Of a DNA stretch of 23,801 bases, positions 3,986 to 23,801 are shown one piece after another. The notes under the pieces were generated by a model. The model did no database searches. It saw only the letters and a program-made list of their open reading frames with translations, and was not told the DNA's origin. This DNA comes from a virus: IMG/VR virus record IMGVR_UViG_3300049484_000300, positions 1 through 23,801 of that record; one strand, given 5' to 3'. A program made the position numbers and the translations under genes. Every line of letters starts with the position of its first letter. Within the stretch, counting starts at the first letter, position 1.

Positions 3986-4630
3986 TCACGCCTGCTTGTC
4001 GAGGTAGACAGGCGCTTCCTTGATCTGGAACGAGCCGCTGAACTGGACGGCCTGCTCCACACCCGGCGGCGAGGCAGCGAACGCGGAAACGACCCCGGCC
4101 ATGATGCCGGTCTGCCCCCCGCGCGTGACCCAGATGAGGTTCCGCGTCAGGCCGTCCTTCTGGGCCTTGATCAGTTCCTTCTGGCCAGCGTCGCTGAGAT
4201 CCAGCGGGCCGCTGAATGTCGCGCTGCCGGGGCTGCTGAGGCCGGCGACATTGCGACGCTCGAGGTCGCACATCGTGGTGACATCCACCTCACCCGGCGT
4301 CGTCGGTTCGTTGCCGAACTCGGCGAAACAGGATTCGATCTGTGTCACCTTCCGCATGGTGCCCGCGGTCGCGGTCGCCGTTTCCAGCGTGGTATCGGTT
4401 TCCACCGTGATGGACGTGGCCGTGGCCAAGAACACCCGGTGAGCCGCAAGACGATCGAGCGTCTTGAAGCCGGTCCCGGCGATGACGATGAAGTCGCCCT
4501 TCACCAGGGTCGCGCCGACCGTGGTGATAACAGCCATCGCCGCCTTGGTCGCAGCCGTGGCCGGAGTCGTGGCGGTGACCGGCATGGTCTCGATCTTGAA
4601 GATCGAACCAATCGTGCTTTCGCGAGCCAT
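3986..4630 (-). CDS. Major tail tube protein
   Basis: A 214-residue protein rich in Ala, Thr and Val that should form the stacked rings of the tail tube. It sits between the tail terminator gene and the chaperone pair, the standard place for the tube protein, and its length fits. Residues 85-130 have alternating beta-strand character (VETDTTLETATATAGTM, then VTQIESCFAEFGN). They are followed by a DVTTMCDLERR segment and a LSSPGSATFSGPLDL turn region typical of tube proteins, in which an N-terminal beta-sandwich carries the long hairpin loop. An alanine/threonine-rich insertion near residues 18-35 (TATTPATAATKAA) is low-complexity. No signal peptide. The call is from position and fold pattern. 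Confidence 0.75.
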   Translation of the reverse strand: MARESTIGSIFKIETMPVTATTPATAATKAAMAVITTVGATLVKGDFIVIAGTGFKTLDRLAAHRVFLATATSITVETDTTLETATATAGTMRKVTQIESCFAEFGNEPTTPGEVDVTTMCDLERRNVAGLSSPGSATFSGPLDLSDAGQKELIKAQKDGLTRNLIWVTRGGQTGIMAGVVSAFAASPPGVEQAVQFSGSFQIKEAPVYLDKQA

Positions 4631-15120: not shown

Positions 15121-16869
15121 CTAAAATACAAGAATGGGGCTCTCACGCATCACATCGTCGACCAAAAGTTCCTTGACCCTCAAGCCCATGGCGAGGGCCA
15201 CAAATCCGTCGATGCGCTGAGTCCTCGATGTCTTGTCAAATTTCCGGTTCCCAGCCGGATCACGGATAACCTGGACGCTCTTCGCATTCCAGGATAGGAC
15301 AGGATGATTGTCGTGCTTGATCCCCACATTGAGCAGAGCATTCTCCACAGTCTCGACCATCAGCGTGCCATCCTTGAAACCCTGACCGATCGGGATCATG
15401 TTGATGTCCACACCGAACTCGTCCATCCAGGTTCGTAGCACGTCGATGCGCCAGCGATCGAAGCCGATAGCCCGGATATTGAAGATCGCCGATAGTTCCG
15501 CAAGACGCTGCGTCACGAACCGGAAGTCAATAGCGTTTCCAGGAACGGCCTCTATATAGCCCCCCTCGGCCCATTTCTCGTAAGGGACTCGATCGCGCTT
15601 CGTGCGCTCACTGAGGGTGTTCTTCGGCGTCCAGAAAAACGGGACAATCTCGTAGGGAGGATCGTCGAAAACGAGAACCAATGCGGTCAAATCCACCTTC
15701 GAGGACAGATCAAGTCCAGCGGTGCAGGTCCGGCCTTCCAGCGCATTGAAGTCTATTTCTCCCGCGCATCGCGCCCAGGTCACTTCGTCCACGAACGTGG
15801 AACTCATGGCAACCCGCTGATTCAGGTACAGATTGCGAAACGAATTCATCATAGTCGGAAGCATCCGCGCTCTCGCGGCGTACTGCCTCATCTCGTCCAG
15901 GCTACGAAAGTCTCCCAGCGCCGGGTTAGCCAGATGCCACTTGGATTCATCAAACGGATCCATTTCCGCCGGCATCGCGTACTTCGTCAGATGGAAGGTC
16001 TCGTCCTTGATCTCTCCCTTGTTCACAGCCTCGCCGTAGTCTACGAGTTCGCTCAGGACCGCGGCATCCTCTGCCGCCTGGGTGCTGATCACCAGAGCCA
16101 GCGGCTCCTTCTGCGCGCCCATAGACGTGGTCATGACGTCGAACAGCGCACGATCCGTACCGAACTGCGAGAACTCATCGAAAAGCACGAAATTCGGGTT
16201 CAGTCCATGCTTGGAGCGGGATTCGGAGGAGAGCGCCCGGAACACGCTGTTGGACTGAAGGCAGAGCGCTCGCTTGGACGACTCCGTGGGGATCACCCGA
16301 CGGGACAGATCTTCATCCTGGAGCACCATAGACTGGACCACACGGAAAGCGAGCGCCGCCTGCCCGACCTCGAAGGCGACGCTGAACAACTGACCGTTCC
16401 AGATCGCGCAGGGACCCGTCAGATGCGCCAGGATCAACCCCCCGGCCATCGAGGTCTTCCCGTTCTTGCGGGCGAGAGTCCAGATCGCTTGGCGGATGGC
16501 GCGAACGTCGTCTCCCTTGTCGTTGACACGCCGAGGTCCATAGACCTGACGGATCATCACTTTCTGCCAGTCGCGGAGAACGATCAACTTCCCGACGTCA
16601 GGTCCATCCGGAACCTTGAGCGTCTCGATGAAGGCTATCACCTTCTCCTCGATAGGCATGTCCATGATGATCCGAGGACGCCTCGGCTCAGCAGGGACGC
16701 CATCCATCTTCTCGATAGCCCGGCGGGCCGTCACCAAACTATCTGAAGCGCGAGCGAGAACATCCGCAAGGCCAGAAGGTCTCACGATGCCGTTCGCATT
16801 ATCCCCAGGTAAGAAAGCGATCTTCGGCTTCTTACTTCGCTTGATGACGGTGCGCTCAGTGACCGACAT
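15121..16869 (-). CDS. terL: Terminase large subunit (Terminase_1, HK97 type)
   Basis: A 582-residue packaging motor. Residues 133-140 (ARKNGKTS) are the Walker A loop. Residues 227-236 (FVLFDEFSQF) are Walker B with D231-E232 catalytic. Residues 258-265 (ALVISTQA) are the coupling motif III. The nuclease begins with D387 in TAGLDLSSKVDLTA, and continues with AIGFDRWRIDVL and the late RIDGFVALAMGL acidic motif. The length and motif spacing match HK97/phiC31-type large subunits. It overlaps the small subunit gene by 14 bases. ATPase and nuclease domains look intact. It pumps phage DNA into the prohead through the portal and cuts it at the end. Confidence 0.95.
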   Translation of the reverse strand: MSVTERTVIKRSKKPKIAFLPGDNANGIVRPSGLADVLARASDSLVTARRAIEKMDGVPAEPRRPRIIMDMPIEEKVIAFIETLKVPDGPDVGKLIVLRDWQKVMIRQVYGPRRVNDKGDDVRAIRQAIWTLARKNGKTSMAGGLILAHLTGPCAIWNGQLFSVAFEVGQAALAFRVVQSMVLQDEDLSRRVIPTESSKRALCLQSNSVFRALSSESRSKHGLNPNFVLFDEFSQFGTDRALFDVMTTSMGAQKEPLALVISTQAAEDAAVLSELVDYGEAVNKGEIKDETFHLTKYAMPAEMDPFDESKWHLANPALGDFRSLDEMRQYAARARMLPTMMNSFRNLYLNQRVAMSSTFVDEVTWARCAGEIDFNALEGRTCTAGLDLSSKVDLTALVLVFDDPPYEIVPFFWTPKNTLSERTKRDRVPYEKWAEGGYIEAVPGNAIDFRFVTQRLAELSAIFNIRAIGFDRWRIDVLRTWMDEFGVDINMIPIGQGFKDGTLMVETVENALLNVGIKHDNHPVLSWNAKSVQVIRDPAGNRKFDKTSRTQRIDGFVALAMGLRVKELLVDDVMRESPILVF

Positions 16870-18098: not shown

Positions 18099-18106
18099 CT
18101 AGGTGA

Positions 18107-18136
18107 ATGATCCCACAAAAACGGGCTCTGAGACAA
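18107..18136 (-). promoter_or_regulatory. Possible promoter for the leftward late operon
   Basis: The minus strand has TTGTCT (preceded by GGC), an 18-base spacer, then GATCAT, ending nine bases before the nuclease ATG. Each hexamer matches four of six sigma70 consensus bases. The -35 with preceding bases, GGCTTGTC, recurs before the capsid gene. It lies in the only divergent intergenic region of the window, where a leftward start is required, but the match is weak. Confidence 0.3.
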
Positions 18137-18158
18137 GCCTAACCTGTAAAGCCTTGGT

Positions 18159-18238
18159 TATGCTAGGCTTGCAGGGCTGGGATGCAAATCTTGCATGGCT
18201 CCCTGAGCGGGCGCGCGGTAGTATGGGCCTAGGCAATT
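18159..18238 (+). promoter_or_regulatory. Repeated promoter element, copy A
   Basis: The first of three copies. Two tandem 15-bp dyads, ATGC-N7-GCAG (18160-18174) and ATGC-N7-GCAT (18182-18196), lie 22 bp apart. Forty bases after the GGGATGC start comes TAGTATGGGC with a -10-like TAGTAT at 18219-18224. No consensus -35 sits 17 bp upstream. If transcription starts near 18231, the second dyad is centred close to -42, the classical place for an activator. It drives the genes from 18257. Confidence 0.7.
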
Positions 18239-18244
18239 TTGCCT
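18231..18244 (+). promoter_or_regulatory. Dyad at the predicted transcription start, copy A
   Basis: AGGCAATTTTGCCT has perfect 6-base arms around TT and ends immediately before the GGAG ribosome site of the first gene. Copy B has a related AGGCAATTAAGCCT. It could be an operator or a short 5' hairpin affecting translation. Confidence 0.45.
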
Positions 18245-18256
18245 GGAGCGCAGACC

Positions 18257-18424
18257 GTGTCTAGTGAACCCCGCAAGATCACCCGAGAGGAGTATGTGGC
18301 CATGCTCCAGGAGGGATACGAATTCAAGCCCGGATACCTGTATGAGTCCGGGAAGTTCGTCCTGGTCAACCTGGGGCCGTCGGCACCGGCGGTCTACAAG
18401 CGCATCACGAAGGAACCGAATTGA
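18257..18424 (+). CDS. Hypothetical protein, 55 aa, first gene of unit A
   Basis: I do not recognise this protein. A GTG at 18257 with GGAG eight bases upstream is the preferred start; a TTG at 18239 is in frame but lies inside the promoter dyad. The product begins MSSEPRKITREEYVAMLQEG, a helix, then shows YEFKPGYLYESGKFVLVNLG, two likely beta strands. It is small, near neutral and soluble, with no membrane segment. Its stop overlaps the next ATG by one base (TGATG). Position right after the divergent promoter suggests early expression. Confidence 0.65.
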   Translation: MSSEPRKITREEYVAMLQEGYEFKPGYLYESGKFVLVNLGPSAPAVYKRITKEPN

Positions 18425-18669
18425 TGGAAGACGACAACGAATTTCCGGACGTCACCCCTGAGGCGTTACGGATCCACAAGCCCGCCGGAGCCAAGCGCGC
18501 AGTCGCAAGGTTTCTGGATGAAAAAGGGGAGGTCTGGTGCTCCGAGGAACTCCCCTCCTACATGACCCGATACTGGCAGGTCGCCATGCACTCGCGGATC
18601 CTGATGCTCGGATACGCCGAACGGAACATGGGATTCCTGGCGGTGTCCTACCGAGTTGAGTGGGTGTGA
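18424..18669 (+). CDS. Hypothetical protein, 81 aa
   Basis: Not recognised. The ATG at 18424 shares its A with the preceding stop (TGATG), and AAGGA lies about ten bases upstream; the in-frame TTG just before is not preferred. The protein is acidic at the start (MEDDNEFPDVTPEAL), then has a possible beta segment (RAVARFLDEKGEVWCSEELP) and ends MGFLAVSYRVEWV. Conserved tryptophans and the short size suggest a single small domain. It is coupled to genes on both sides. Confidence 0.65.
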   Translation: MEDDNEFPDVTPEALRIHKPAGAKRAVARFLDEKGEVWCSEELPSYMTRYWQVAMHSRILMLGYAERNMGFLAVSYRVEWV

Positions 18670-18896
18670 TGCGATATTTGGTGCGCGAATACGGAGGGCG
18701 GGAGTTCGACTCCCCCTCCGTCAAGGCCGTCGTGGCTCTGTATCAGCAGGGCCGGTCGGGCGTTGTGCGATCTGTTCGCACGACGAATGGTCGCGGGTGG
18801 CGGATCGAGGAGAACGGCAATCTCTTCATCGCCCAGGTGATTGACACGACGGTGCAGGACCCGCGGGTCCTATATGGGCAGGAGCAGAAGCGGTGA
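18669..18896 (+). CDS. Hypothetical protein, 75 aa
   Basis: Not recognised. The ATG at 18669 overlaps the previous stop (TGATG); the GTG at 18660 would extend it by three residues with no better ribosome site. The sequence MRYLVREYGGREFDSPSVKAV is followed by two strand-like parts (SGVVRSVRTTNGRGWRIEENG and LFIAQVIDTT). It is basic and probably a small beta-rich protein. Its end is overlapped by the next gene. Confidence 0.6.
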   Translation: MRYLVREYGGREFDSPSVKAVVALYQQGRSGVVRSVRTTNGRGWRIEENGNLFIAQVIDTTVQDPRVLYGQEQKR

Positions 18897-19063
18897 GCCA
18901 GACGTTCGAACAGTGGATGGCGAAGGTGGATAAGATCCTCCTCGCCAAAGTCCACATGGATAGCGAGATGCTGCCGGACTGGCGATATCGTCGCGCCTGG
19001 GAAGAGGGATACACCCCCAGCGAAGCAGCCCGCGAGGCAATCAAGTACGCCCGGGAGTCGTAG
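18893..19063 (+). CDS. Small conserved protein, 56 aa (DUF5419-like)
   Basis: A 56-residue helical protein starting at GTG (GTGA overlap with the upstream stop) with a strong AGGAG eight bases before. It reads FEQWMAKVDKILLAKVHM, then LPDWRYRRAWEEGYTPSEAA and REAIKYARES. The order F-x-x-W-M-x-x-V-D, then L-P-D-x-x-Y-R-x-x-x-E-x-G-x-x-P-x-x-A-A-x-x-A is a pattern I recall for a small family (DUF5419 type) common in phages and proteobacterial genomes. Its role is unknown. It is the last gene of unit A. Confidence 0.65.
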   Translation: MSQTFEQWMAKVDKILLAKVHMDSEMLPDWRYRRAWEEGYTPSEAAREAIKYARES

Positions 19064-19070
19064 GCGGCGC

Positions 19071-19150
19071 TATGCCGGGCACGCATGGCAGGGATGCAAA
19101 TCGTGCAGCCCTGCCAGACGGCCGTTGTGGCAGTATGGGCATAGGCAATT
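19071..19150 (+). promoter_or_regulatory. Repeated promoter element, copy B
   Basis: It aligns with copy A without gaps over 80 bases. Dyads are ATGC-N7-GCAT (19072-19086) and ATGC-N7-GCAG (19094-19108), again 22 bp apart. CAGTATGGGC starts at 19131, 40 bases after GGGATGC as in copy A. A 7-bp inverted repeat, GGCAGGG and CCCTGCC, encloses the second dyad. It sits in the 112-base gap before the gene at 19176. Confidence 0.7.
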
Positions 19151-19156
19151 AAGCCT
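19143..19156 (+). promoter_or_regulatory. Dyad at the predicted transcription start, copy B
   Basis: AGGCAATTAAGCCT has perfect 4-base outer arms and shares AGGCAATT with copy A at the same distance from the -10-like box. It lies a few bases before the GGAG ribosome site. Confidence 0.4.
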
Positions 19157-19175
19157 CTAGTGGAGTTCGGTCACA

Positions 19176-19499
19176 ATGACCCAGACCAACAATCTTCAGG
19201 AGGTGACCGGCGGTATGTCTGGTCACGACTATCACGCGCAGTTTGCGGGCGCCCCCACGGTGGACTGGACGGAGAAGGGCCTCTACATCACCCGACTCCG
19301 TCTGATCGGCGACGCCGGGGTGCTGGACGTGTCCTACTGCCACGGTCGCCTGAAGGACGGCACCCTGGTCAACGTGCAGGTCCCCTTCGATCAGATCCCG
19401 CTGCGGGGGCACAAGCGGGTGATCGTGTGGTGGGCGAAGAAGGAAAAGGTCTTCGCTCAGGGCCTCGGCATCTTCGACAACATTTCCATCCTGCACTGA
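19176..19499 (+). CDS. Hypothetical protein, 107 aa, first gene of unit B
   Basis: Not recognised. ATG at 19176 follows GGAG by ten bases. A second in-frame ATG at 19215 (M14) is preceded by AGGAGGTGACC, nearly the full anti-Shine-Dalgarno complement though spaced 11 bases, so either start could be used. The body is beta-rich: VDWTEKGLYITRLRLIGDAG, VLDVSYCHGRLKDGTLVNVQ, then KRVIVWWAKKEKVF. It may be a small beta-barrel; that is a guess from alternation only. Confidence 0.7.
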   Translation: MTQTNNLQEVTGGMSGHDYHAQFAGAPTVDWTEKGLYITRLRLIGDAGVLDVSYCHGRLKDGTLVNVQVPFDQIPLRGHKRVIVWWAKKEKVFAQGLGIFDNISILH

Positions 19500-19511
19500 G
19501 GGGAACGACCA

Positions 19512-19778
19512 ATGACCGGAAAAACGACTGGCGCCCTGGCGCGGCGCCTAGCCCGGCTGGAGCGCCGGGCAGGCAAGGTTTCCTGGGGATACGAGGCCTT
19601 CAAGGTCGCGGTTCCCAAGATCGGCGAAGAGCGCATCTCGTTTCTCGAAATGCTGACGGACGAGGACCTGACGCGTATCATGTTCACGCGCCGCAGCGAG
19701 GTGACTCTATCGGCCCAGGAAACCGAAGTCACCGACGAGCTCACCATCAACCTGCTAGATCATGGGGGAGTGGCCTGA
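19512..19778 (+). CDS. Hypothetical protein, 88 aa, LSDEDL-motif type
   Basis: Not recognised as a family. GAGGGG lies ten bases before the ATG. The first 25 residues are arginine-rich (ALARRLARLERRAGK). Residues 43-54 (SFLEMLTDEDLT) share a short pattern, hydrophobic-x-x-L-S/T-D-E-x-L, with two other proteins in this block (20249-20530 and 21340-21609), and the helical tail after it looks similar in layout. It is one of three possible diverged paralogues. Its stop overlaps the next start (TGATG). Confidence 0.65.
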   Translation: MTGKTTGALARRLARLERRAGKVSWGYEAFKVAVPKIGEERISFLEMLTDEDLTRIMFTRRSEVTLSAQETEVTDELTINLLDHGGVA

Positions 19779-20059
19779 TGCCATCCAATCGCAATCTCGG
19801 CCGCAGCCGCGCGCAGCGCGCCTATCGCATCGTGGGCGGCGAGCTCACCATGCTCTACAACAAGGGATACTCGGCCTTCCAGATCATGGAGGAAACGCAT
19901 CGTCTCCTGGACGACTTCGGCATCCCCCGTGCGAGCAACGTTCGCAGCCGACTCTGCGTCGCGCTCTGGAACTTAGCCCCCCGCATGTCGCGGGTGTCCA
20001 TCGAGAACATGCTCGCGAACACCGAGCAGTTCGCTGGTTGGGATCACGACGATGGCTGA
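19778..20059 (+). CDS. Hypothetical helical protein, 93 aa
   Basis: Not recognised. Start at ATG 19778 in a TGATG overlap with GGGGGAG just upstream; a longer reading extending into the preceding genes is only an open shadow frame. The protein starts very basic (SNRNLGRSRAQRAYRI) and then becomes helical, with YNKGYSAFQIMEETHRLLDDF and VRSRLCVALWNLAP. It is basic and might bind nucleic acid, but no HTH is clear. It overlaps the next gene by eight bases. Confidence 0.65.
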   Translation: MPSNRNLGRSRAQRAYRIVGGELTMLYNKGYSAFQIMEETHRLLDDFGIPRASNVRSRLCVALWNLAPRMSRVSIENMLANTEQFAGWDHDDG

Positions 20060-20252
20060 GCCGCTGCGTCGGCACTTCCCCACGCGGGAAGAAGCGATCC
20101 AGCACCTGCGGGATCGGGGCTTTGTCCTCGATCTGCGGCGTGGATGGGAGAAGGAGGGGCTGGCGGGCGCTCGTTGGTCGGCCCTGGTGGAGTTCATCAA
20201 CAATCATCCCGATGGTGAGTGGCACATCGCCACCTGGAGGAGCGACGAATGA
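20052..20252 (+). CDS. Hypothetical protein, 66 aa
   Basis: Not recognised. It begins inside the end of the preceding gene and reads PTREEAIQHLRDRGFVLDL, then WSALVEFINNHPDGEWHIATW. The pattern of a helix, a strand, and a closing W-H-I-A-T-W strand suggests a small alpha/beta fold. It contains several Trp residues. Its stop overlaps the next ATG (ATGA). Expression is probably coupled to neighbours. Confidence 0.6.
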   Translation: MAEPLRRHFPTREEAIQHLRDRGFVLDLRRGWEKEGLAGARWSALVEFINNHPDGEWHIATWRSDE

Positions 20253-20530
20253 GCGCGACGATGCAGCGGATCTACGAGGCCTACTTCGCAGATCAGCGGA
20301 CAATCTACCCCGAGGAGACCAAGAAGCAGATCCTCGTCAAGTTCCGGGAACTTTCGCTCGAATCCTGGCGTTTCCTGGACGAACTTTCTGATGAAGATCT
20401 GTTTCACGTCTGCTGCGGCGAGCAGATTGATGAGGGGACGAAGGTTCGTCTGGCGAACGACACAATTCTCTCCGTCCCCAAGGAAGTTTCGGACTTCCTC
20501 AACCTCGTGTTCGAATGGAGCACCGACTGA
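20249..20530 (+). CDS. Hypothetical protein, 93 aa, LSDEDL-motif type
   Basis: Not recognised. ATG at 20249 with GGAGGAG upstream is preferred to an upstream GTG at 20219. It reads MQRIYEAYFADQRTIYPEET, then SLESWRFLDELSDEDLFHVC near residues 37-56, which lines up without gaps with the motif in the proteins at 19512-19778 and 21340-21609. A C-C pair (HVCCGEQ) follows. The C-terminal half ends in VPKEVSDFLNLVFEW, a helix. It is acidic overall. Confidence 0.65.
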   Translation: MSATMQRIYEAYFADQRTIYPEETKKQILVKFRELSLESWRFLDELSDEDLFHVCCGEQIDEGTKVRLANDTILSVPKEVSDFLNLVFEWSTD

Positions 20531-20814
20531 TGACCTCCTACCTGATGTCCCTGCAGAATCGCCGCAAGAAGCGGAACATTTATCTACGGGCGACCAGACT
20601 TCTGGGCGATCTCAAGGATACCCTGCGTGAGATCGGCGAATTCTCCGGCGATCTGACCAGCGACTACTCGGATCTGTCCGAGATCAAGAGCCAGCGGCTC
20701 GCCGGCGAAGTCCGCGATGCCATGCGCGAGGTTGACATCAAGGTCGGCCCCCGACGCGAGAGGCTGGATGACGTCCTGTCCAAGTTCAACAACCTTCCCG
20801 AGGAGATATCGTGA
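20530..20814 (+). CDS. Hypothetical coiled-coil-like protein, 94 aa
   Basis: Not recognised. ATG at 20530 overlaps the previous stop (TGATG), with GGAG nine bases upstream; the ATG at 20515 has no ribosome site. It starts with a basic stretch (SLQNRRKKRNIYLRATR) then a long charged helix (LGDLKDTLREIGEFSGDLTS; LSEIKSQRLAGEVRDAM). Heptad-like spacing of leucines suggests it forms a coiled coil. A structural or binding role cannot be told from sequence. Confidence 0.65.
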   Translation: MTSYLMSLQNRRKKRNIYLRATRLLGDLKDTLREIGEFSGDLTSDYSDLSEIKSQRLAGEVRDAMREVDIKVGPRRERLDDVLSKFNNLPEEIS

Positions 20815-21089
20815 TGCGATGGCTGCTGCTGATCCTGGCTCTGGGGGCGTGCGCCGACGTGCGACCCTGGAGTTACGACGAAGTCTGCCGGGCACGGGAG
20901 GGCAACTATCAGGCGTGCATCGATCAGCACGTCCGCGCCGCCCAAAGGCAGAACGCCGATCGCTTCATCGCCGCCGCTCCGTTTACGAACGCTGTTCTCG
21001 CCGGAGTCAACGACGGACTGGCGATCACGAACTGGCGCAACGATGTCCGAGCGGAAGTCCGCTACTGGCAAAGGAACCCGATCCGATGA
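20814..21089 (+). CDS. Probable small lipoprotein, 91 aa
   Basis: Residues 2-12 are one basic residue and a hydrophobic run (RWLLLILALGA), then a lipobox-like LGAC with Cys at 13. Cleavage there would give a lipid-anchored protein on the inner face of the outer membrane or in the periplasm. Two further cysteines (25 and 35) could form a disulphide. The rest is charged and soluble (AAQRQNADRFIAAAPFTNA). Phage lipoproteins made outside the lysis cassette often act in superinfection exclusion; this is inference. ATG at 20814 is preferred to the GTG at 20811, as GAGGAG is eight bases upstream. Confidence 0.6.
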   Translation: MRWLLLILALGACADVRPWSYDEVCRAREGNYQACIDQHVRAAQRQNADRFIAAAPFTNAVLAGVNDGLAITNWRNDVRAEVRYWQRNPIR

Positions 21090-21298
21090 GCAAGACCCGC
21101 GAACTGATCGCCATGGATGTCCGCCAGGAGGGGCCGAGCTCCCCCCTCAGCGTGCCTGAGATCCAGGGCATGATCCACAGGCTGCGCCGAGCGCACATCG
21201 CAGCGAGCATCAACGATGATCCCAGATGGCCACTGATCGCAGATGCCATCGCCGCGATGCAGGCTCTGCATCGGCACGAGACCAATGGTCAGTATTAG
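21086..21298 (+). CDS. Hypothetical helical protein, 70 aa
   Basis: Not recognised. ATG overlaps the lipoprotein stop (ATGA) and AAGGAA lies upstream. The sequence shows VPEIQGMIHRLRRAHIAAS and a second helix LIADAIAAMQALHRHET, consistent with a small all-helical bundle. It is near neutral. It ends 41 bases before the next gene; that gap has a TACACT hexamer but no convincing promoter and no copy of the repeated element. Confidence 0.6.
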   Translation: MSKTRELIAMDVRQEGPSSPLSVPEIQGMIHRLRRAHIAASINDDPRWPLIADAIAAMQALHRHETNGQY

Positions 21299-21339
21299 CC
21301 GGACGCGCTACACTGGCGGGGCTGCAACAGGAGGAACCC

Positions 21340-21609
21340 ATGAATTTCATCTCGCTTGCCGACCGCGTCGCCCGCGGCACTCATCCAGATCACAATGCCG
21401 CTGAGTGGAAGTGGATCTTCAACAATCTCGGACTCACCGAGACTCAGTATCTGACCCTCTATGCCCTGTCCGATGTCGAACTCGCCGATTTCTGTATGGG
21501 AAGGATGATCGCGCCGATCCCTCCCGTGCTGGTGGACGTGGGCGATCGGATTCTCGATCTCATGATCCGATACGAATCGGAAGTCCTGCTTCCGGGGGAC
21601 AAGGCGTGA
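21340..21609 (+). CDS. Hypothetical protein, 89 aa, LSDEDL-motif type
   Basis: Not recognised. The ATG at 21340 has a very strong AGGAGGAA ribosome site. Residues 34-49 (ETQYLTLYALSDVELA) line up with the motif of the two other proteins, although D replaces E in the pattern. The protein is acidic and helical, and ends in RILDLMIRYESEVL. Third member of a possible diverged group. Confidence 0.65.
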   Translation: MNFISLADRVARGTHPDHNAAEWKWIFNNLGLTETQYLTLYALSDVELADFCMGRMIAPIPPVLVDVGDRILDLMIRYESEVLLPGDKA

Positions 21610-21839
21610 GCAGGATTCACCACGCCAGATCTGGAGACTACATTGTTCTCAAGCATCCTAAGCCCCTCGACGAACATTGGGATCGGGCTTGGAGCGTGCT
21701 GATAGGAAGTGTGGACATCCATTCTTTCTCACAGGCTCATCAGTCTGGTATCACCTACGGCCACACCCCGGAGGCGATGACCGCCCGTCATGTTCTCGGC
21801 CGGTGGGCCTTGGACGGGTGCATCATGGTGGTGCCCTAG
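21606..21839 (+). CDS. Hypothetical protein, 77 aa
   Basis: Not recognised. GTG start overlaps the previous stop (GTGA), with GGGGGA upstream. The longer frame from 21405 is a shadow of the upstream gene. The protein has HHARSGDYIVLKHP at the start, then WSVLIGSVDIHSFSQAH and TARHVLGRWALDGCIMVVP. It is histidine-rich (seven or so His), which could reflect metal binding, but no spacing fits a known site. It is the last gene of unit B. Confidence 0.6.
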   Translation: MSRIHHARSGDYIVLKHPKPLDEHWDRAWSVLIGSVDIHSFSQAHQSGITYGHTPEAMTARHVLGRWALDGCIMVVP

Positions 21840-21841
21840 AG

Positions 21842-21931
21842 TATGCTAGGCGCGCATAGCCGGGATGCAGGAAACGCATGGCTCCAAGTGTGGTCTGCGA
21901 CCGCCCTGGTGCTACTATGCGTTGTGGCAAT
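21842..21931 (+). promoter_or_regulatory. Repeated promoter element, copy C
   Basis: Third copy. Dyads ATGC-N7-GCAT (21843-21857 and 21865-21879) are both perfect and again 22 bp apart. The -10-like TACTAT starts at 21913. Its distance from the dyads is 11 bp longer than in copies A and B, one turn of DNA, while the 13-base step from -10 to GGCAAT is unchanged. This keeps the binding face in phase. It lies before the gene at 21961. Confidence 0.7.
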
Positions 21932-21960
21932 ACCGTCACGACTAGAAAGGCTCCGCCATC

Positions 21961-22557
21961 ATGGCAATCGACAATCAGGCTTCGCGCTTCGCGGCTGCCG
22001 CCGCCCACTACCACCGGGACGACCCGGACATCATCAACCTCCCGCTCCTCCAGGACACGTGGGAATTCGTGTTCCGGTCGCTGGAGCAGCCTCACCTCCA
22101 CACGCTCATCATCATGAAGGAAGCCGACATCCAGCCCTGGATGAATCACTTCATGGACGACTTGGTGGACGCTGAGCGCATGGACGATGTCCCTGCGGGC
22201 GGCGATCTGTACGACGCGGTCGACCGGTTGATCGCCAAGTTCCAGGATGTCCTCATCCCGGCAGCCGAGAAGTTGGCGGAGAACAGCGACAAGAACCTGG
22301 ACAATACCGAGTCCTGGCGCTTCATGCTGGCGCGGCTCCCCCTGACGGATGGGCTGGCCAACGCGATCGAGGCAATGACGGAGCAGCAGACGCTGGACTT
22401 CTCGGTCGGCGGCGACTTCGAGGGGCTGGATCCCGACGGTGGCATCTACTGGCTCGGCGAACTCTACCCGGACGCCGACATCGGCAACGTCACCATTCGG
22501 CTCAACCATCTGTACATGGACCTCGAGCGGACGTGGTTCCAGGGGGTGCAGTCGTGA
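21961..22557 (+). CDS. Hypothetical acidic protein, 198 aa, first gene of unit C
   Basis: Not recognised. The largest plus-strand gene, acidic, lacking cysteine. It starts MAIDNQASRFAAAAAHYHRDD and is mostly helical, with DTWEFVFRSLEQPHLHTLII, DDLVDAERMDDV and DAVDRLIAKFQDVLIPAAEK. It ends in aromatic/negative segments (DGGIYWLGELYPDAD). A GAAAGG sits ten bases before the ATG. Acidic helical phage proteins can mimic DNA, but nothing here shows that. The stop overlaps the next GTG (GTGA). Confidence 0.7.
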   Translation: MAIDNQASRFAAAAAHYHRDDPDIINLPLLQDTWEFVFRSLEQPHLHTLIIMKEADIQPWMNHFMDDLVDAERMDDVPAGGDLYDAVDRLIAKFQDVLIPAAEKLAENSDKNLDNTESWRFMLARLPLTDGLANAIEAMTEQQTLDFSVGGDFEGLDPDGGIYWLGELYPDADIGNVTIRLNHLYMDLERTWFQGVQS

Positions 22558-23652: not shown

Positions 23653-23801
23653 GCACTATTTGCGACCCTAAACGGAGGCCGTGGGAGGCTGCGGGCGCCC
23701 TGGCGGGCAGTAGGGTAGCGGGCCGGGGCTTCCCTGGCTCCTACAGCCTCCGTTTAGGCGCCTTGGTTTTGCCCTCTGGGCTAGGCCCGATCATCTAACG
23801 G
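23653..23801. other. Noncoding right edge
   Basis: No supported gene lies from 23653 to the end. It holds the inverted repeat, then a short dyad GGGCTAGGCCC at 23778-23788, preceded by GCCC that can also pair with GGGC. Beyond that nothing is evident. Confidence 0.6.
23667..23758. repeat. Long inverted repeat/hairpin with 13-bp perfect ends
   Basis: CCTAAACGGAGGC at 23667-23679 is the exact reverse complement of 23746-23758. After one C/A mismatch, seven more positions pair (one G-U), so a 21-position stem with a single mismatch is possible. The 50-base loop contains GGGCGCCC. Nothing coding is visible here. It could be a terminator (TTTT occurs eight bases after the stem on the plus strand), a structured RNA, a packaging or attachment signal, or a small repeat-derived insertion with terminal repeats. 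No other copy is seen in the window. Confidence 0.7.

Follow-up and report, generated by a model that had tools for sequence, protein, structure and literature searches.

A four-half-site promoter element of phages as a candidate operator for the host regulator VtlR/LsrB

LysR-type transcriptional regulators (LTTRs) contact DNA as tetramers, each occupying two boxes of the form T-N11-A, and the operator of OxyR, ATAG-N7-CTAT-N7-ATAG-N7-CTAT, is bound by such a tetramer. Among phages, short inverted repeats recurring ahead of transcription units are represented by the stoperators and ESAS elements of mycobacteriophages, which are confined to one phage cluster and are recognised by a phage repressor or an unknown factor. 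Oxidative stress, small RNAs and the colonisation of hosts by symbionts and pathogens are all connected with VtlR/LsrB, a class-wide regulator of the Alphaproteobacteria of which, to our knowledge, few direct targets have been established. The present analysis concerns a 37-bp element that stands at three places, A, B and C, in a virus contig, the IMG/VR record IMGVR_UViG_3300049484_000300, whose entire 23,801 bases are referred to below as the window. Comparison with described systems makes it probable, as far as sequence can tell, that each copy is an operator for VtlR/LsrB of the host.

The LysR regulator adjoining the AbcR small RNAs is known as VtlR in Brucella and Agrobacterium and as LsrB in Sinorhizobium, and a VtlR box GCAT-N3-TG-N3-T has been proposed (PMC7486931). 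In Sinorhizobium meliloti the LsrB site, a tandem T-N11-A, lies at -61 to -49 of PabcR1, whose activity drops more than 22-fold once the site is removed, and LsrB senses redox state (PMC8844928). The Brucella VtlR box has been reported as CAATGCAGCCATGCA, with AbcR2 and DUF1127 proteins as the main targets (PMC12595884). Among openly accessible papers, none was found that describes phage promoters under VtlR/LsrB, the apparent VtlR-phage papers being coincidences of accession number, and searches of the literature for the motif strings likewise found none.

Geometry of the element and its likeness to known operators

A preliminary description of the window had placed the pattern ATGC-N7-GCAK-N7-ATGC-N7-GCAK (K is T or G) at three positions, and all three copies were recovered there with 0 mismatches in each; about 5e-5 perfect copies would be expected from base composition. 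A scan allowing up to 3 mismatches gave eight matches, as against 0.85 expected in dinucleotide shuffles (largest shuffle 3), and six of these eight are the three copies, each read on both strands; at up to 2 mismatches there is no further match anywhere in the window. The operators and their associated boxes are as follows.

18160..18196, plus strand: putative operator A, four half-sites forming two LTTR boxes; 0-mismatch motif, syntenic in relatives
18160-18174 and 18182-18196, plus strand: dyads 1 and 2 of operator A
18171-18185, plus strand: central VtlR-box-like stretch of operator A
18219..18224, plus strand: -10-like box TAGTAT of promoter A, offset 22, with a predicted +1 at about 18231
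19072..19108, plus strand: putative operator B; 0-mismatch motif
19131..19136, plus strand: -10-like box CAGTAT of promoter B, offset 22, with a predicted start near 19143
21843..21879, plus strand: putative operator C, perfect on both strands
21913..21918, plus strand: -10-like box TACTAT of promoter C, offset 33 (11 more than in A and B), with a predicted start near 21925

Much of what had been described was borne out. The -10-like box follows A and B at a fixed distance and C at 11 bp more (22, 22 and 33 bases past the element), no -35 is recognisable in A to C, the gap-free alignment of A with B, earlier put at 80 bases, extends over 95 bases at 71% identity, and the placing of the elements at heads of transcription units, with half-sites phased at one helical turn, was supported. 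The half-site itself had to be amended: the ATGC pattern is present, but the half-site is longer, the family consensus being AGCCATGC-N7-GCATRGCNGSYATGC-N7-GCATGGCT, which amounts to the half-site GCATGGCT in alternating orientation once every 11 bp. Reckoned from the predicted start, the dyad centres at 18167 and 18189 lie at about -64 and -42, the latter agreeing with the position proposed for the second dyad. As ATGC-N7-GCAK is itself a T-N11-A sequence, a pair of such dyads, separated by some two turns and in those positions, has the layout of an LTTR operator. A cooperative dimeric regulator, likely an activator, had been suggested; the activator-site geometry was upheld, whereas the dimers are better read as one tetramer on the four half-sites, because LTTRs bind in that form to two T-N11-A boxes.

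The viral-site consensus GCATAGC(A/T)G-N-TATGC fits the VtlR box GCAT-N3-TG-N3-T, and if TAGTAT is taken as -12 to -7 the central box of A (18171-18183) would fall at approximately -60 to -48, the published position being -61 to -49. VtlR/LsrB-activated promoters (those of the abcR1/abcR2 small RNAs, vrsA and DUF1127 genes) are thus resembled in the box, the tandem T-N11-A, the position near -60, the sigma-70 type -10 and the presence of the element beside vtlR. They are unlike the present promoters in that the phage elements are carried on phage genomes with all four half-sites strong, where in hosts one of the two boxes is generally weak, in that some phage arrays exceed four half-sites, and in that the window copies are without a -35. 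The OxyR operator shares the four half-sites of four bases in 11-bp steps but has ATAG where the phage half-site is ATGC, and the footprint of the latter is found with vtlR, not oxyR. Stoperators and ESAS elements are similar in recurring ahead of units, whereas the element considered here is common to host promoters and many phage types. The elements are best regarded as a variant of a known promoter kind and not as a new kind of system.

Occurrence in phage contigs and beside vtlR

An exact pattern, ATGC-N7-GCATNGCNGNNATGC-N7-GCA, is matched by 39 IMG/VR contigs with GC contents of 33-63%, compared with none for a reversed control pattern that differs in CpG content, and a second VtlR-like pattern was found in 56 viral contigs. 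A phage-specific operator of one lineage is ruled out by the presence of the motif in unrelated contigs of such widely differing GC. Enrichment upstream of genes elsewhere had been named as a check on the proposal, and the element does precede genes in relatives of the window, in unrelated phage contigs and in hosts. Among 67 distinct oriented viral sites, TANNNT occurs 8, 13, 3 and 8 times at offsets 22-25 past the element, against 1.25 per offset, with a smaller second rise at offsets 33-35 (3, 2 and 3). Weak -35-like sequences (TTGA/CTTG) are enriched at offsets -1 to 0 and at 9 to 11, where a -35 would stand given a spacer near 17, so that there appear to be two promoter classes one helical turn apart, like A and B versus C in the window. 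The recurrence of the site in dozens of unrelated phage contigs suggests the use of a host regulator by phages to drive genes of their own. In four contigs (L022, L023, L039 and L046) the array continues in 11-bp steps beyond four half-sites and looks as if the regulator could spread along it.

On the bacterial side a scan of GTDB gave 21 element matches, the well-placed ones being alphaproteobacterial. The element lies upstream of a Pfam-confirmed DUF1127 gene in one locus (L063) and of probable DUF1127 genes, judged by eye, in two others (L058 and L064), while in L054 it stands directly past a LysR gene and ahead of a short terminator-ended transcript. This LysR protein is presumably VtlR/LsrB, an assignment made from the shared context and its sequence, not from an alignment to the Brucella or Sinorhizobium protein. 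An ortholog of the L054 protein is present in 11 of the 12 genomes with alphaproteobacterial element matches and in 106 of 190 sampled Alphaproteobacteria. When 40 alphaproteobacterial vtlR loci were examined, ATGC-N7-GCAT was found in 23 of them within 320 bp after the gene, in the vtlR-adjacent promoter, at a density of 25 copies in 12.8 kb as against 4 copies in 136.7 kb elsewhere. This holds at a half-site spacing of 7 only, the fifteen other spacings (0 to 15) being seen in 0-2 of the 40 loci each.

Two Rhodobacteraceae loci, L054 (at about 4161-4330) and L060, have past vtlR a short transcript with CCTCCCTGTTGGACTT and a terminator that is likely to be an AbcR-type small RNA; a search of the window and the host loci against Rfam, these transcripts included, gave no RNA family match. 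An inverted repeat, GATGTTGC...GCAACATC/GCAGCATC, recurs downstream of vtlR in other loci (L080, L087, L088, L091, L092, L095, L105, L107 and L108); it lies close to where the transcript beside vtlR is expected to begin, and is possibly the 5' hairpin of host AbcR-like RNAs.

The regulator, its host and rival explanations

No LysR helix-turn-helix domain (PF00126) was detected in 44 viral records (0 of 24 and 0 of 20), many of which are fragments, and control genomes were positive; a phage-borne LysR gene was accordingly set aside. A host regulator is the best reading because the element is common to phages and host vtlR neighbourhoods and no viral LysR domain was found. An activator or repressor of some other DNA-binding family, encoded by the phage in the missing part of the genome and controlling the small-gene units through these elements, seems unlikely by comparison. 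The window is indeed partial, phages commonly have multi-site operators of their own, and the elements are far commoner in viral contigs than in bacterial genomes; however, a phage-specific protein leaves unexplained why the same element is found in unrelated phage contigs and beside host vtlR and DUF1127 genes, and a 44-kb relative is without a LysR gene, other DNA-binding families not having been searched for. We think it less likely again that the partner is another host LTTR, such as a VtlR paralog, or a different host factor preferring ATGC-N7-GCAT. Paralogs do exist in some genomes, T-N11-A boxes are common to LTTRs and one match, in Geobacter (L059), adjoins a different LysR gene, but across the Alphaproteobacteria the footprint adjoins vtlR itself and it matches the published VtlR box. 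Least probable by a wide interval, and barely to be entertained, are sites for replication, packaging or immunity in place of promoter operators. The elements are palindromic and repeated, and site A is in a divergent region near the terminase genes, yet a -10 box and the start of a run of genes follow every element at a fixed distance, the -10 spacing is seen again in independent contigs, and the host copies are located in promoters.

Several observations count against VtlR/LsrB of the host as the partner. The published box is met imperfectly in the window, with one departure in copy A (GCAG for GCAT), one in copy C (CG for TG) and a match on the minus strand only in copy B. A match to all four half-sites is the best place in just 18 of the 40 vtlR loci, most host sites consisting of one strong and one weaker box, and some GTDB matches fall outside the Alphaproteobacteria, where they are probably due to chance or to other LTTRs. 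The element is nearly absent from the 16 isolated alphaproteobacterial phages scanned, Rhizobium phage RHEph01 having one intergenic 3-mismatch match, near chance level. Lastly, the window is a 23.8-kb fragment, and its terminase is about as distant from those of alphaproteobacterial prophages (44% identity at best) as from those of HK97-type enterobacterial phages (42%). Host assignment by similarity of terminase, capsid or tape-measure protein was uninformative, and there is no nucleotide match between the window and known phages; for a tail-region protein, 13 of 22 matching records belong to phages of Brevundimonas (most of them), Sphingomonas and Mesorhizobium (one each).

If VtlR/LsrB is nevertheless the regulator concerned, both T-N11-A boxes (ATGC-N7-GCAT), set 22 bp apart and facing the same side of the helix, would be contacted by its tetramer; their positions would be about -71 to -57 and -49 to -35 in A and B, and in C a helical turn farther upstream. 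The downstream box would abut the -35 region, and the tetramer would bring in sigma-70 RNA polymerase at a promoter that has a -10 box and no good -35. Three short units of small genes would in this way be switched by a protein that senses redox and metabolic state in the host, and copy A may also affect a divergent late promoter. The broader proposition, that many unrelated alphaproteobacterial phages have independently come under the redox-responsive VtlR/LsrB of their hosts, so that expression follows redox or metabolic state, and that the transcripts of one family share a 5'-terminal stem-loop, is one towards which we lean slightly. Were it true, phage infection would be coupled to a host stress sensor, and phage operators would constitute a rich natural set of binding sites defining the full four-half-site operator. 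The element is also a sequence mark that may help to assign hosts to uncultured viral contigs, and the prediction can be tested directly in S. meliloti with published reporter and gel-shift tools.

Gene units and a stem-loop at the predicted transcript start

The window consists of a minus-strand left block of head, packaging and tail genes, including an HK97-type terminase at 15121-16869, and a plus-strand right block of small genes, copy A lying in the divergent region that separates them. Of ten small right-side genes scanned only one, at 18893-19063, matched a family (phrog_519, function unknown). The units and the stem-loops at their predicted 5' ends are listed below, the stem-loops resting on folding and covariation, the genes on reading frames and, for the first genes of B and C, the family scan.

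18229..18246, plus strand: stem-loop of predicted transcript A, CUAGGC-AAUUUU-GCCUGG
18257..18424, plus strand: first small gene of unit A, 55 aa, GTG start placed by an upstream GGAG
Up to 19063, plus strand: further small genes of unit A
19143..19156, plus strand: stem-loop of predicted transcript B, AGGC-AAUUAA-GCCU
19176..19499, plus strand: first gene of unit B, 107 aa, without PHROG match
To about 21.8 kb, plus strand: further small genes of unit B
21922..21941, plus strand: stem-loop of predicted transcript C, UUGUGGC-AAUACC-GUCACGA, with G-U pairs
21961..22557, plus strand: first gene of unit C, 198 aa, without match

In relatives whose terminases are 69-78% identical, the element is found some 1.3 kb from the start of the terminase gene, which is the place of copy A (occupied in L004, L006, L010, L137, L138, L140, L141, L142 and L143), and L006 and L010 have additional copies ahead of other units. 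An inverted repeat that had escaped the earlier description begins just past the -10 box, on the predicted +1 or no more than a few bases from it, at each of the 12 unit heads identified in the window, L004, L006 and L010. Six heads were folded and gave a stem of 4-7 bp with the loop AAUNNN, except in L004, and a slightly smaller loop in A. Across 13 distinct sequences, further relatives included, 97% of stem cells pair and four of the six pairs change on both sides, with a covariation score of 0.59, shuffles giving 0.17 and slid controls no more than 0.15. Because the sequences were aligned manually around the repeat, absolute figures lean towards a stem, a bias that the slid controls share only in part. 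The presence of G-U pairs makes an RNA structure likelier than a DNA site. In one relative (L138) the stem-loop is lost.

The idea that VtlR-driven phage promoters in general include a stem-loop was rejected: at sites chosen regardless of any stem-loop the mean stem was 4.08 at the predicted start and 4.0 at 35 nt downstream. Since stems at the start are no longer than those downstream in the sites of other phages, the feature belongs to the phage family of the window. Transcripts of this family would begin with the stem-loop just before the ribosome-binding site, where it probably slows 5'-end-dependent decay, stabilising the mRNA, or else keeps the ribosome site open. The ompA mRNA has a 5'-terminal stem-loop, and the likeness is of a hairpin at the predicted first transcript nucleotides; the conserved AAUNNN loop and the use in phage leaders set the present structure apart, and here an effect on stability is only proposed.

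Leftward of operator A, towards an HNH gene, blocks resembling CTTGTCTC and GTGGGATCAT are kept on the minus strand (18099-18160) in several relatives, as is, judged by eye, a CTTG...-10-like sequence; from its sequence this region is a probable divergent promoter. Seven low-GC contigs (L016, L025, L026, L033, L035, L041 and L042) have the element in common, and in five of these (L025, L026, L033, L035 and L042) a conserved leader containing GTGCTAACAG...GTGACAG comes after it. The small ORF that follows in L016 and L026 does not begin until some 275-300 nt downstream of the element, which leaves room for a possible small RNA or long leader. At the right end of the window, past the last small gene, there is a 21-nt inverted repeat at 23667-23758, its arms 90% complementary and 50 nt apart.

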